Source: Salinivenus lutea
Lineage (GTDB): Bacteria > Bacteroidota > Rhodothermia > Rhodothermales > Salinibacteraceae
Direction: 5' to 3'
Assembly (NCBI GenBank): GCA_002894685.1
Contig: NCRC01000008.1
Location: 1 to 64,000 of the forward strand
Length of the DNA stretch: 64,000 nt
Shown piece after piece: positions 53,205 to 57,637 of the stretch. The position numbers were made by a program, and so were the translations under genes. The notes below the pieces were generated by a model that ran no database searches, was not told where the DNA came from, and saw only the letters and a list, made by a program, of their open reading frames with translations. Each line of letters starts with the position of its first letter. Position 1 is the first letter of the stretch.

Positions 53205-54365
53205 ATGTCCTCTCCGACCGCCGCCTCCGACGCCGCTCCCGCCACGCTCGCCCTGTCCGACGGCACCGTCGTTACGGGCACCGCCATCGGCCATCGTGGC
53301 CTCACGGGAGGTGAGCTCTGCTTCAACACGAGCATGACGGGCTACCAGGAGATCATGACGGACCCGTCCTACTACGGGCAGCTCATGATGATGACCCAGC
53401 CGCACATCGGCAACTACGGCGCGACGGACGAGGACATGGAGGCCGACGCCCCGATGGTGGCCGGCTTCATCGTACGCGACTTCACGCGGCGGCCCTCCAA
53501 CCCGCAGGCCGACGAGACGCTCGACACGTTCATGAAACGCCACGAGCTGGTGGGCATCGCCGGCGTCGACACGCGGGCGCTGGTGCGTCACATCCGGAGC
53601 GAGGGGGTCATGAACGCCGTGATTTCTTCCGCGGAGCAAGACCCGTCCCCCCTCGTCCAAAAAGCGCGGGACTGGCCCAGCATGGCGGGGCGCGAGCTGG
53701 CGTCCAAGGTGTGGCCCGAGGCGCCCTACACGTACTGCAAAGGCGACGGCCCGCGCATTGCCGTCTACGACTTCGGCGTCAAGCAAAACATCCTCCGCTC
53801 CTTCTGCGCCCGCGGCTGCACGGTCCGGGTGGTGCCCGGCCACACGCCCCTCGACGACGTGCTGGACTGGGACCCGGACGGGCTCTTTTTCTCGAACGGG
53901 CCGGGCGACCCCCGCGCCATGCCCGACGCCATTGCCCGCGTCGGACGGGCCCTGAAGACGGGTCGGCCGGCGTTTGGCATCTGCCTGGGCCACCAGCTGA
54001 TGTCCCTGGCCCAGGGCTTCGACGTCTACAAAATGTTCGTGGGGCACCGCGGGGCCAACCACCCCGTCAAGAATCTCGACACGGGACGCGTGGAGGTGAC
54101 GACGCAGAATCACGGCTTTGCCGTTGACGCCGAGTCGATCGCCCCGGACGCGGCCCGCGTGACGCACGTGAACCTGAACGACGACACGATCGAGGGACTC
54201 GAATTCAAGAGGGTTCCCGGGATGTCGCTGCAGTACCACCCGGAGGCCTCGCCCGGCCCGCACGACAGCCACTACCACTTCGACCGCTTTCTGGAGATGG
54301 TCGCGGAGGAGCGGGGGCTGTCCTTGCCGGAGGCCGCCGCTGAGCCCCTGACGGTGACGGCGTGA
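53205..54365 (+). CDS. carA: carbamoyl-phosphate synthase small subunit
   Basis: 386-residue glutamine amidotransferase subunit that feeds ammonia to CarB for arginine and pyrimidine synthesis. The N-terminal half has LSDGTVVTGTAIGHRG and FNTSMTGYQEIMTDPSYYGQ. The C-terminal class I amidotransferase domain has FFSNGPGDPRAMPDAI, the nucleophile in FGICLGHQLMSLA (C260) and the HPEASPGPHDS block for the His/Glu pair. ATG 53205 matches the family start. A terminator in the leader suggests regulation. A 197-bp repeat-rich gap separates it from carB. Confidence 0.96.
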   Translation: MSSPTAASDAAPATLALSDGTVVTGTAIGHRGLTGGELCFNTSMTGYQEIMTDPSYYGQLMMMTQPHIGNYGATDEDMEADAPMVAGFIVRDFTRRPSNPQADETLDTFMKRHELVGIAGVDTRALVRHIRSEGVMNAVISSAEQDPSPLVQKARDWPSMAGRELASKVWPEAPYTYCKGDGPRIAVYDFGVKQNILRSFCARGCTVRVVPGHTPLDDVLDWDPDGLFFSNGPGDPRAMPDAIARVGRALKTGRPAFGICLGHQLMSLAQGFDVYKMFVGHRGANHPVKNLDTGRVEVTTQNHGFAVDAESIAPDAARVTHVNLNDDTIEGLEFKRVPGMSLQYHPEASPGPHDSHYHFDRFLEMVAEERGLSLPEAAAEPLTVTA

Positions 54366-54368
54366 GTC

Positions 54369-54473
54369 GTTGAGCGTTGGAGGGTTGAGCGTTGGAAGGT
54401 TGAGCGTTGGAGGGGTGAGCGTTGGAGGGTTGAAGGTTGGAAGGTTGAACGTTGGAGGGTTGAAGGAGGAGAG
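54369..54473 (+). repeat. 15-bp tandem repeat between carA and carB
   Basis: Six full 15-base units, consensus GTTGAGCGTTGGAGG, run from 54369 to 54458 with one to three changes each (for example GGTGAGC in the fourth unit), followed by a degenerate seventh unit to 54473. The array starts three bases after the carA stop. It has no open reading frame of its own. Confidence 0.9.
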
Positions 54474-54533
54474 TTGAGGATAGAGACTTGAGAGTCGAAG
54501 AGTGAAGGAAACATCCCCAGACGGAACTCACGG

Positions 54534-54562: not shown

Positions 54563-57391
54563 ATGCCCAAGCGCACCGACATCGAGACCATCCTGCTCAT
54601 CGGCTCCGGCCCCATCGTCATCGGCCAGGCCTGCGAGTTTGACTACTCCGGCAGCCAGGCGGCCCGCGCCCTCATGGACGAAGGCTACCGCGTGGTGTTG
54701 GTCAACTCGAATCCGGCCACGATCATGACCGACCCCCTGATGGCCGATAAGGTGTACCTGCGCGAGCTGACGCCCTCGTCGATTGCGCAGATTGCGCGGA
54801 AGGAGCAGCCGGACGCCGTGCTCCCCACAATGGGCGGGCAGACGGGGCTCAACGTGGCGCAGGACCTGAAGGAGAGCGGCTTTTGGGCGGAGGAAGGGAT
54901 CGAGGTGATCGGGGTCGACATCGACACGGTCCAGATCACGGAGGACCGGCAGCAGTTTCGCGACCTGATGGACGAGATTGGCCTCGACCAGTCGCGCAGC
55001 CGCACGGCCAAGAGCCTCCTGGAGGCCAAAGAAATCACCCAAGAGCTCGGCGGCCTGCCGGTCGTGATTCGCCCCTCCTACACGCTCGGCGGGGCGGGGG
55101 GCGGCATCGTGTGGGAGGCCGACACGTTTGAGTCGATGGTGACGCGTGGGCTGGAGCTATCGCCGGCTCACCAAGTGCTCATCGACGAGTGCCTCTTCGG
55201 GTGGAAGGAGTACGAGCTGGAGCTGCTTCGCGACCCCAACGACAACGTCATCATCATCGCGTCCATCGAGAACGTGACGCCGATGGGCGTGCACACGGGC
55301 GACTCGGTGACCGTCGCCCCGCAGCAGACGCTGACCGACAAGCAGTTCCAGAAGATGCGGGACGCGGCGATCAAGGCCATGAACTCGATTGGCACGTTCG
55401 CCGGTGGGTGCAACATCCAGTTCGCCTACGAGCCGGGCACCGACCGCATGATCGTGATCGAGATCAACCCGCGGGTGAGCCGCTCCTCGGCCCTTGCCTC
55501 CAAAGCCACTGGTTACCCGATCGCCAAGGTGGCCTCGAAGCTCGCGATCGGCTACACGCTCGACGAGCTGCCCAACGAGATCACCGGCGACACGAGCGCC
55601 TGCTTCGAGCCCTCGCTCGATTACGTGGTGACCAAGATCCCGCGCTTCAACTTCAGCAAGTTTGAGGGCGTCGACGAGGAGCTGACCACCCAGATGAAAG
55701 CCGTCGGCGAGGTGATGGCCATCGGCCGCACGTTCAACGAGAGCCTGCAGAAGGCGTGGCAGAGCCTGGAGATCGGCTATGCGGGGCTGGGGGCCGACCG
55801 CCCGGACGCCGACCGGTCGGTGGTGCGCGAGCGGTTGAAAAAGCCCTACTGGGACAACCTGCTCCACGTCCGCCACGCCTTCCGCTACGGGGCGAGCGTC
55901 GAGGAGGTGCACGACGTGACGCAGATCGACCCCTGGTTTCTCCACCAGATCCAGGCCCTCGTGGAGCAGGAGAACAAGATCCGCGAGACGCCGCTCCGCG
56001 AGATGGAGGATCGCTTCCTGTGGGAGGCGAAGCGCGCGGGCTTCTCGGACGAACAGATCGCCTACCTTGTGCCGGAGGACGTCTCCGACCGCGCGGTGCG
56101 GGCCCACCGCACCGAGCGGGACGTGACGCCCACCTACCAGGTGGTGGACACCTGCGCGGGGGAGTTCCCGGCCGAGACGCCCTACTACTACTCCAGCTAC
56201 GAGACGGTCAACGAGAGCGCGGTCACGGGCCGCGAGAAGGTGCTCATCCTGGGCTCCGGCCCGAACCGCATCGGGCAGGGCATCGAGTTCGACTACTCGT
56301 GCGTCCACGGCGTAAAGGCGGCGCAGGAGATGGGCTACGAGGCGCTTATGCTCAACTGCAACCCCGAGACCGTCTCCACCGACTTCGACGTGGCGGACAA
56401 GCTCTACTTCGAGCCGGTCTTCTGGGAGCGGGTGCAGGACGTGATCGATCTGGAGCAGCCGGAGGGCGTCATCCTGCAGCTCGGCGGGCAAACCGCCATC
56501 AAGCTCGGCGAGCGCTTCGAGGAGGACGGCGTCCACATCTTTGGCACCTCGTATTCAAAGATGGACCTGGTGGAGGACCGGGGCAAGTTCACCGACATCC
56601 TGAAGCGGCTGGAGATTCCGTCGCCGCCCTACGGCGTGGCCCACTCGGTGGAGGAGGCCGTCGCCACGTCCGACGAGCTTGGCTACCCGACGCTCATCCG
56701 GCCGAGCTACGTGCTGGGGGGCGAGGGGATGCGCATTGCCATCAACCGCGACGAGGTGGCCGAATACGTCGACAACATCCTGTCGATCTACCCCGACAAC
56801 GAAATCCTGCTCGACCGTTTTCTGGAAGATGCGATCGAGATCGACGTGGACGCGGTGTGCGACGGGGAGGAGGTGTGGATCACCGGCATCATGCAGCACA
56901 TCGAGCCGGCGGGCGTCCACTCCGGCGACTCGACCGCCGTCCTGCCGCCGTTCAGCCTGTCGGAAGACATCCAGGAGACGATCCGACAGTACACGCGCGA
57001 CCTGGCGTTCGAGCTGGGCGTCCTGGGCCTGCTGAACGTGCAGATGATCGTGAAGGACGGGACGGTGTACGTCATTGAGGCCAATCCCCGCGCCTCGCGC
57101 ACCGTGCCGTTCGTCGCCAAGGCCTCGGGCATTCCCATCCCGGCCATCGCTACGAAGGTGATGCTGGGCGAGACGCTGGCGACCTTCCGCGAGCGGGGCG
57201 ACCTGGAGTCCAGCCTCACGGGCTACGCCATCAAGGAGCCGGTCTTCTCGTGGGACAAATTCCCCGAGGTGCCGAAAGAGCTGGGGCCGGAGATGAAGTC
57301 GACCGGCGAGTCCATCGCGTTCGTCGACTCGCTCTCCGTCGAGGAGTTTGAGCAGCCCTACGAAATGAAAGACCTGTACCTCTCGCGGTAA
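54563..57391 (+). CDS. carB: carbamoyl-phosphate synthase large subunit, no MGS-like domain
   Basis: 942-residue CarB. Two tandem ATP-grasp halves each begin with the phosphate-binding motif (GSGPIVIGQACEFDYSG at about 14, and GSGPNRIGQGIEFDYS at about 570). Glycine-rich loops (TLGGAGGG), the INPRVSRSSALASKATG metal site and NPRASRTVPFVAKASG follow in order, with an oligomerisation section between. The protein stops shortly after GPEMKSTGES, ending MKDLYLSR; it lacks the C-terminal MGS-like allosteric domain that binds UMP/ornithine in E. coli, as is usual for Bacteroidota. ATG 54563 is in line with other CarBs. A second copy of its tail lies 100 bp downstream. Confidence 0.96.
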   Translation: MPKRTDIETILLIGSGPIVIGQACEFDYSGSQAARALMDEGYRVVLVNSNPATIMTDPLMADKVYLRELTPSSIAQIARKEQPDAVLPTMGGQTGLNVAQDLKESGFWAEEGIEVIGVDIDTVQITEDRQQFRDLMDEIGLDQSRSRTAKSLLEAKEITQELGGLPVVIRPSYTLGGAGGGIVWEADTFESMVTRGLELSPAHQVLIDECLFGWKEYELELLRDPNDNVIIIASIENVTPMGVHTGDSVTVAPQQTLTDKQFQKMRDAAIKAMNSIGTFAGGCNIQFAYEPGTDRMIVIEINPRVSRSSALASKATGYPIAKVASKLAIGYTLDELPNEITGDTSACFEPSLDYVVTKIPRFNFSKFEGVDEELTTQMKAVGEVMAIGRTFNESLQKAWQSLEIGYAGLGADRPDADRSVVRERLKKPYWDNLLHVRHAFRYGASVEEVHDVTQIDPWFLHQIQALVEQENKIRETPLREMEDRFLWEAKRAGFSDEQIAYLVPEDVSDRAVRAHRTERDVTPTYQVVDTCAGEFPAETPYYYSSYETVNESAVTGREKVLILGSGPNRIGQGIEFDYSCVHGVKAAQEMGYEALMLNCNPETVSTDFDVADKLYFEPVFWERVQDVIDLEQPEGVILQLGGQTAIKLGERFEEDGVHIFGTSYSKMDLVEDRGKFTDILKRLEIPSPPYGVAHSVEEAVATSDELGYPTLIRPSYVLGGEGMRIAINRDEVAEYVDNILSIYPDNEILLDRFLEDAIEIDVDAVCDGEEVWITGIMQHIEPAGVHSGDSTAVLPPFSLSEDIQETIRQYTRDLAFELGVLGLLNVQMIVKDGTVYVIEANPRASRTVPFVAKASGIPIPAIATKVMLGETLATFRERGDLESSLTGYAIKEPVFSWDKFPEVPKELGPEMKSTGESIAFVDSLSVEEFEQPYEMKDLYLSR

Positions 57392-57462
57392 GCTGAATCT
57401 CAGAATCGAGGAAGCCGGTGGCGGGAGGTCGCTCCTTTGACATTCACGGAGCGAAGCGGAGT

Positions 57463-57491
57463 AAATGAAGGACCTGTACCTTTCTCGGTAG
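57463..57491 (+). pseudogene. relic copy of the carB 3' end
   Basis: Positions 57463-57491 match the last 29 bases of carB (57363-57391) at 26 places. The copy also encodes M-K-D-L-Y-L-S-R and a stop, and the differences inside the codons are synonymous (AAA/AAG, CTC/CTT, TCG/TCT; TAA/TAG). The offset is exactly 100 bases. It is not translated in frame with carB. It probably comes from recombination or integration at the gene's end. Confidence 0.8.
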
Positions 57492-57637
57492 CGAGGCCCC
57501 TCGTGCATCGGCAGTGCGGATCTTCGTGCGGGTGACCTACGGGATACAGACGAACGGCGACGCTCCCGGACGACAGAACGTGGACGCACGGAATCCAAGC
57601 CCTATTCGGCAGCCCACTGAGATAAAGAGAGGCAGCC

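Follow-up and report, generated by a model that had tools for sequence, protein, structure and literature searches.

The 3′ end of carB is present twice in the window, by which we mean the whole 64,000-nt stretch of Salinivenus lutea DNA analysed here (its genome being G000 in the genome comparisons), and the second end is probably the former end of the gene, displaced when a small DNA with a carB 3′ end of its own inserted. This small feature belongs to a recurrent pattern of which no description was found in the literature searched, with a search that had most subscription journals outside its scope returning no account of carB tails or of gene-end copies around toxin-antitoxin pairs.

The window carB gene (54563–57391, + strand), a reading frame with Pfam CPSase_L domains, encodes a carbamoyl-phosphate synthase large subunit of 942 aa. 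Enterobacterial CarB is longer, and the window enzyme has no MGS-like domain match in Pfam; between carA and carB, at 54365–54480, lie short imperfect tandem repeats resembling gttgagcgttggaggg. The 3′ end of the gene reads ATGAAAGACCTGTACCTCTCGCGGTAA, with the stop at 57391. Repeat alignment defines the functional end (copy 1, 57363–57391) and the putatively displaced end (copy 2, 57463–57491, assigned also by a silent/non-silent codon test), both on the + strand, as 29-base copies with 25 identical positions and a start-to-start distance of 100, while a separate repeat alignment of the two tails spans 28 nt at 89%. Both encode MKDLYLSR-stop, and all four differences between them (AAA/AAG, CTC/CTT, TCG/TCT and TAA/TAG) are silent. 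A reading made from the window alone, hereafter the sequence-only reading, had described the recurrence, its 100-base offset, the encoded peptide and divergence confined to silent positions and the stop codon, all of which hold, whereas its count of 26 matches is corrected here to 25. The 29-nt copies are separated by 71 nt and the 27-nt coding copies by 73 nt, with the interval made up of a 50-nt spacer (57392–57441, + strand), for which a homologue search found nothing, and a 23-nt motif, ATTCACGGAGCGAAGCGGAGTAA (57442–57464, + strand), which abuts the second ATG and is found also in the units of G002, G010, G012 and G018. The insert is bordered by a carB end at each side (57363–57391 and 57463–57491), with carB itself intact, and no toxin or antitoxin genes were found in it. 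Downstream of copy 2, positions 57492–57545 (+ strand) correspond, by flank comparison, to the flank that adjoins the functional carB tail directly in G012.

The repeat is not a chance resemblance, because carB alone scores as high among 352 reading frames of G000 (464 kb) when each tail is compared with its own 300-nt downstream flank, its score of 22 being the only one of at least 16 and the runner-up reaching 14.5; comparing tails with the flanks of other frames gave 0/1760 at this threshold. The same tail-flank alignment in G079 gave a single score of 16.5 among 327 frames, for a gene other than carB. At the peptide level, a scan of 693 frames (864 kb of G000 and G079) found two that reach 25, the carB genes of the two genomes, with control comparisons for frame tails giving 0/3465 at 25 or more. 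Strong tail recurrence is carB-specific in the two surveyed genomes. Weaker resemblance of tails to their own flank is slightly commoner in general (9/352 against 5/1760 for other flanks in G000, at a score of 13), and this favours one rival, in which a minisatellite-like tandem duplication spanning the stop codon leaves the gene intact, lets the spare copy drift and is later trimmed by losses between repeats. Such duplications do occur: like minisatellites, the carB units place direct repeats of a gene end close together, and G096, with exact 61-nt tandem copies of the carB end and the sequence after the first copy repeated after the second, fits that description fully. However, a tandem duplication should copy the flank too, and the window sequences after tail 1 and tail 2 are unrelated. 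Unrelated spacers, silent-site divergence and, in G002, a functional copy with foreign codons set the carB units apart from minisatellites, and we regard tandem duplication as an unlikely origin for the pattern, and as the less likely one for the window taken alone.

The spare copy of a tandem duplication would also be expected to gain non-silent changes, and a silent excess is seen instead. Across 16 pairs of tail and copy, a set that excludes the identical copies of G096 and the copy of G013, which has lost its frame, silent codon differences number 75 and non-silent ones 9, with 68 differences at third, 26 at first and 8 at second codon positions. Simulated neutral copies have a mean silent share of 0.22 and simulated half-constrained copies, in which half of the differences are forced to be silent, one of 0.56, with 0/3000 and 0/600 simulations respectively reaching the data. 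Restricting the comparison to the ten pairs found without the profile described below, which avoids the bias of a profile toward conserved positions, gives 44 silent against 8 non-silent codons, again reached by 0/3000 neutral and 0/600 half-constrained simulations. For the four Salinibacter/Salinivenus pairs alone (14 silent, 5 non-silent) the corresponding figures are 0/3000 and 12/600, so that the half-constrained null is only disfavoured for these four. The copies of family f5 are near saturation, with the three tails of G113 differing at almost every codon while each reads NLYLSR-stop. The proposal in the sequence-only reading that silent-only divergence marks both copies as former coding ends is strengthened by its recurrence in other lineages.

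Once a copy is displaced, selection on it does not persist, since those of G002, G010, G012, G018, G068, G100 and G108 have each either lost the stop or changed one or two codons non-silently; strict present-day selection on the second copy is contradicted by the non-silent changes in those of G002, G010 and G012. These changes also bear on the idea of a functional element after carB, either a translated eight-codon mini-gene or a selected 3′ RNA structure. The window, G002 and G012 have GGAG ahead of the second ATG, the spacer length is constant at 50–53 nt, and in f5 the carB stop codon lies within an 11+4+11 palindrome in 6/23 genomes (at least 9/11 pairs; for example L234 in G100, L236 in G097 and L237 in G101), with its Leu/Tyr codons covarying with the stop and 3′ flank to a degree matched by 1/2000 permutations. 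However, the non-silent changes in the G010 and G012 copies, the lost stop of G018, a second kind of f5 copy that has no ATG, the absence of the palindrome from the window's family and an Rfam search that gave no match make a functional element very improbable. The palindrome was considered separately as a recombinase site and set aside, being present in part of f5 and absent from the window's family.

The relatives of the window genome, of which Salinivenus iranica CB7 (G012) is the nearest, offer a view of the same junction in other states. A ATTCACGGAGCGAAGCGGAGTAA-type motif followed by a tail copy lies 3′ of carB within the genus in G000, G012, G010 and G002, the last presumably Salinibacter ruber, and beyond it G018, of a different genus, has one motif-preceded tail copy after carB, with G013 retaining a degraded copy. 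The spacer is 50–53 nt long in these six genomes, its sequence not being conserved and common to G002 and G010 only. Pieces similar to the motif exist elsewhere in the genomes of the family, and the motif was accordingly examined as a dispersed repeat and rejected as such, its junction with a carB tail occurring only at carB. In the incomplete genome G019, a dispersed intergenic repeat, GGAGATTCACGGAGCGTAGCGTAGTAAAYG (for example at L104, L112, L117 and L118), is similar to the motif that precedes the carB tail copy, with 12 query matches. The sequence-only reading had asked for homologues of the 71-base insert, and none is recognisable except the 23-nt motif.

Two of these comparisons show flanks that change place relative to the tail. 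In G003 there is no tail copy, and the flank starting from its carB tail matches the G002 flank starting from the second tail (80% over 371 nt), a state that could have arisen by deletion between repeats. Similarly, G012 has after its functional tail a match to the sequence that follows copy 2 in the window (81% over 69 nt, tail included). A relative that has no insert and continues from the second copy is present for G002, in the form of G003, and not for the window itself. Both comparisons, G012 with G000 and G003 with G002, would also fit the losses between repeats that tandem duplication allows. The outcome that the sequence-only reading had held against an insertion, a duplication shared by all relatives with no trace of insertion, is not what the relatives display, given G003 and the position of its flank. 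Downstream of 57545, a stretch of the window considered as a possible third tail in decay was discarded, as its alignment with G012 was equalled by 8.4% of 500 shuffles and is not significant.

Which of two ends is the newcomer is best seen in G002. Its functional tail uses CTA TAT TTG TCT, codons that are rare or missing in the rest of the gene (CTA 0/80, TAT 2/29, TTG 0/80, TCT 0/49), and differs from that of G003 at 8/30 sites, compared with a gene mean of 2.0 and with 3 and 2 in the two preceding windows. The second copy, in contrast, has 1/27 differences from the tail of Salinibacter altiplanensis AN15 (G006) and 3/27 from that of G003. With foreign codons upstream and the codons of its neighbours downstream, the downstream copy of G002 looks resident and the functional end looks like the newcomer, as if an old end had been displaced by an insert that brought a new one. 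One copy with the codons of neighbours is what the sequence-only reading had proposed looking for, and the direction it suggested, an incoming allele or end-restoring insertion, is upheld by the G002 codons, whereas the mechanism is not, no integrase being found in 83 flanks. In the window the rarer codons (CTT and TCT) are in the downstream copy; this would fit an earlier newcomer that was displaced in turn, and the codons of the window do not prove the direction.

The foreign codons that G002 has in its functional tail again speak against tandem duplication, and both they and the unrelated spacers could be accounted for by known processes if homologous recombination took place with DNA of a diverged relative in which tail copies were already present, with crossovers in carB and between non-matching tails and no cassette machinery. 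Units and tails are re-ordered among L162, L163 and L164, the functional tail of L162 being similar to the second tail of the other two, as expected from recombination between tails. However, this explanation needs a crossover inside the tail each time, because the excess in G002 is confined to the last 30 nt with the preceding windows ordinary, and it leaves the first origin of the units unexplained; we consider it quite improbable, more so than tandem duplication.

Tail copies extend well beyond these genera. When 98 Rhodothermales carB flanks, each at most 600 nt long, were searched with a profile built from 99 carB tails (cut-off 9 bits), 16 copies were found in 13 of the flanks, spanning six genera and two families (f1, 4/23 genomes; f5, 9/23), with no hits on the reverse strand or in 20 shuffled sets; the more diverged copies in G010, G013 and G006 escape the profile and are absent from its count. 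Among 111 flanks, the same 98 and 13 from Chitinophagaceae, a peptide scan detected 15 copies, which belong to 11 genomes (f1, 3/23; f5, 8/23; none in the other 65), with 20 shuffles per flank giving 1 and the reverse strand 3. Finally, a degenerate pattern for the last six carB codons and stop was found, against 4 places for a control pattern, at 62 places in 114 genomes, all but two of which (G055 C115 and G109 C78) lie at carB by its coordinates.

In some genomes of other families the interval between the two carB ends holds genes. The flanks with gene pairs were picked by eye from the 98 and do not amount to a systematic count. In G033 (f8; C1:280144-281063; L311, L382) an exact 91-bp repeat of the carB end, with a spacing of 899 bp, encloses genes for an MNT-type nucleotidyltransferase and a HepT-like protein, and in G037 (f12; L314, L385) an MNT/HepT pair with a broken HepT frame follows carB and is itself followed by 42 exact nt of the genome's own carB end, at a spacing of 825. 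In G056 (f10; L324, L442) DUF4160 and DUF2442 lie between carB and an 85-nt copy at 80% identity (spacing 665), the tail of the copy differing at 7/27 nt, all silent. A DUF2281 and PIN pair follows carB in G045 (f7), with an apparent decayed tail, judged by eye, after PIN, while G103 has an Arc/FitA-like and PIN pair and G061 an MNT/HepT pair after carB, with a copy visible in neither. The larger insertion at the same place anticipated by the sequence-only reading is found in G033, G037 and G056 (899, 825 and 665 bp), but not in the window's own family, where no insert with genes was found at carB.

The association was also surveyed from the side of the gene pairs, at 30 HepT and 30 DUF4160 loci, counting only direct repeats of at least 40 nt at 80% or more, because repeats of lower stringency occur in background windows as well (25/300). 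Strong repeats were found at 9/60 loci (HepT, 6/30; DUF4160, 3/30), compared with 0/148 controls, comprising 0/68 other loci and 0/80 windows upstream of the carB end. Six of the nine are gene ends, with copies of 42–119 nt: three of carB, one of gcvP (G032, L398; 84 nt, 95%), and, both in G047 (L415, L439), one of a class II tRNA-synthetase gene (63 nt, 95%) and one of moaC (119 nt, 94%). The remaining three, all at HepT loci (L387 in G042, L388 in G028 and L408 in G016), are intergenic terminator-like palindromes, with those of G042 and G028 probably representing one orthologous site. Exact repeats of at least 18 nt were present at 6/30 HepT loci, compared with 1/2000 random windows of G000 and G079. 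Two HepT genes of G009 (C5:237-542 and C5:6527-6832; L406), equal in score and identity and 6.3 kb apart, are perhaps a recent duplication.

In the mechanism that we propose, a small incoming DNA equipped with a carB 3′ end would join carB within the last codons, the new tail with its last codons and stop would become the functional end, and the previous tail would be pushed ~100 nt downstream, there to decay. Entry may proceed by homologous recombination of a circle through the gene end, or through a recombinase acting from elsewhere, and recombination between the copied ends would suffice for the loss or swapping of units, which fits G012 compared with G000, G003 with G002, and L162 with both L163 and L164. 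We infer displacement in the window too, just as we infer a recombination step and an incoming form that may have been circular or linear. A tyrosine recombinase profile built from six sequences found no match among 83 carB flanks, each reaching about 10 kb at most; G033 and G056 are outside this set, and their inserts contain nothing but the gene pairs. Viral contigs were scanned three times with exact patterns, for the tail (in two codings) and for the motif, with 0 matches in each scan, and plasmid and phage BLAST searches for a source returned only carB homologues or weak chance matches. The suggestion that the 71 bases are the remnant of an integrated element, with the tails as attachment-site halves, is not supported, as no integrase was found and no homologue is recognisable beyond the 23-nt motif.

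Integrase-encoding islands and phages that insert at a gene 3′ end carry a replacement for that end. SGI1, for example, inserts at trmE (PMC8409611). The carB units resemble such end-restoring insertions in their position and in the double presence of the gene end, and in both an end supplied by the incoming DNA keeps the gene whole; they differ in that no integrase was found at carB and in that the inserts, of 70–900 bp, are empty or hold one gene pair. The type II toxin-antitoxin pairs MNT/HepT (HEPN) and PIN, as well as the DUF4160/DUF2442 pair, are described in PMC7157771 as passengers of mobile DNA, namely Tn3-family transposons. Compared with the pairs treated there, the cassettes of G033, G037 and G056 hold the same protein families, but the carB-type cassettes lie between copies of a host-gene end and have no transposase, and the window has no pair. 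The route by which small toxin-antitoxin pairs are acquired is unsettled, as PMC7157771 notes for those carried by Tn3-family transposons.

A wider scheme is possible and is put forward tentatively. Across the Rhodothermales, toxin-antitoxin-type pairs (MNT/HepT, DUF4160/DUF2442 and perhaps PIN pairs) may spread as integrase-less cassettes into the 3′ ends of housekeeping genes (carB, gcvP, moaC and a class II tRNA-synthetase gene), duplicating the last 40–120 nt so that the gene stays whole, with recombination between the ends removing or exchanging cassettes, each event swapping the codons of the functional end, and the short carB units of Salinibacter, Salinivenus and f5 being cargo-less versions. 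By analogy, the 71-nt insert of the window may be a cargo-less relic of a gene-end-duplicating toxin-antitoxin cassette, with which it shares its place and its logic but nothing else in sequence.

These observations indicate that an essential gene can have its final codons exchanged for ones of outside origin, and that a copy which seems non-coding can be recognised as a former gene end when it has diverged only at silent sites. Furthermore, a gene pair with the 3′ end of the gene before it repeated beyond the pair is a searchable signature, by which the acquisition of toxin-antitoxin pairs would become testable on a large scale.
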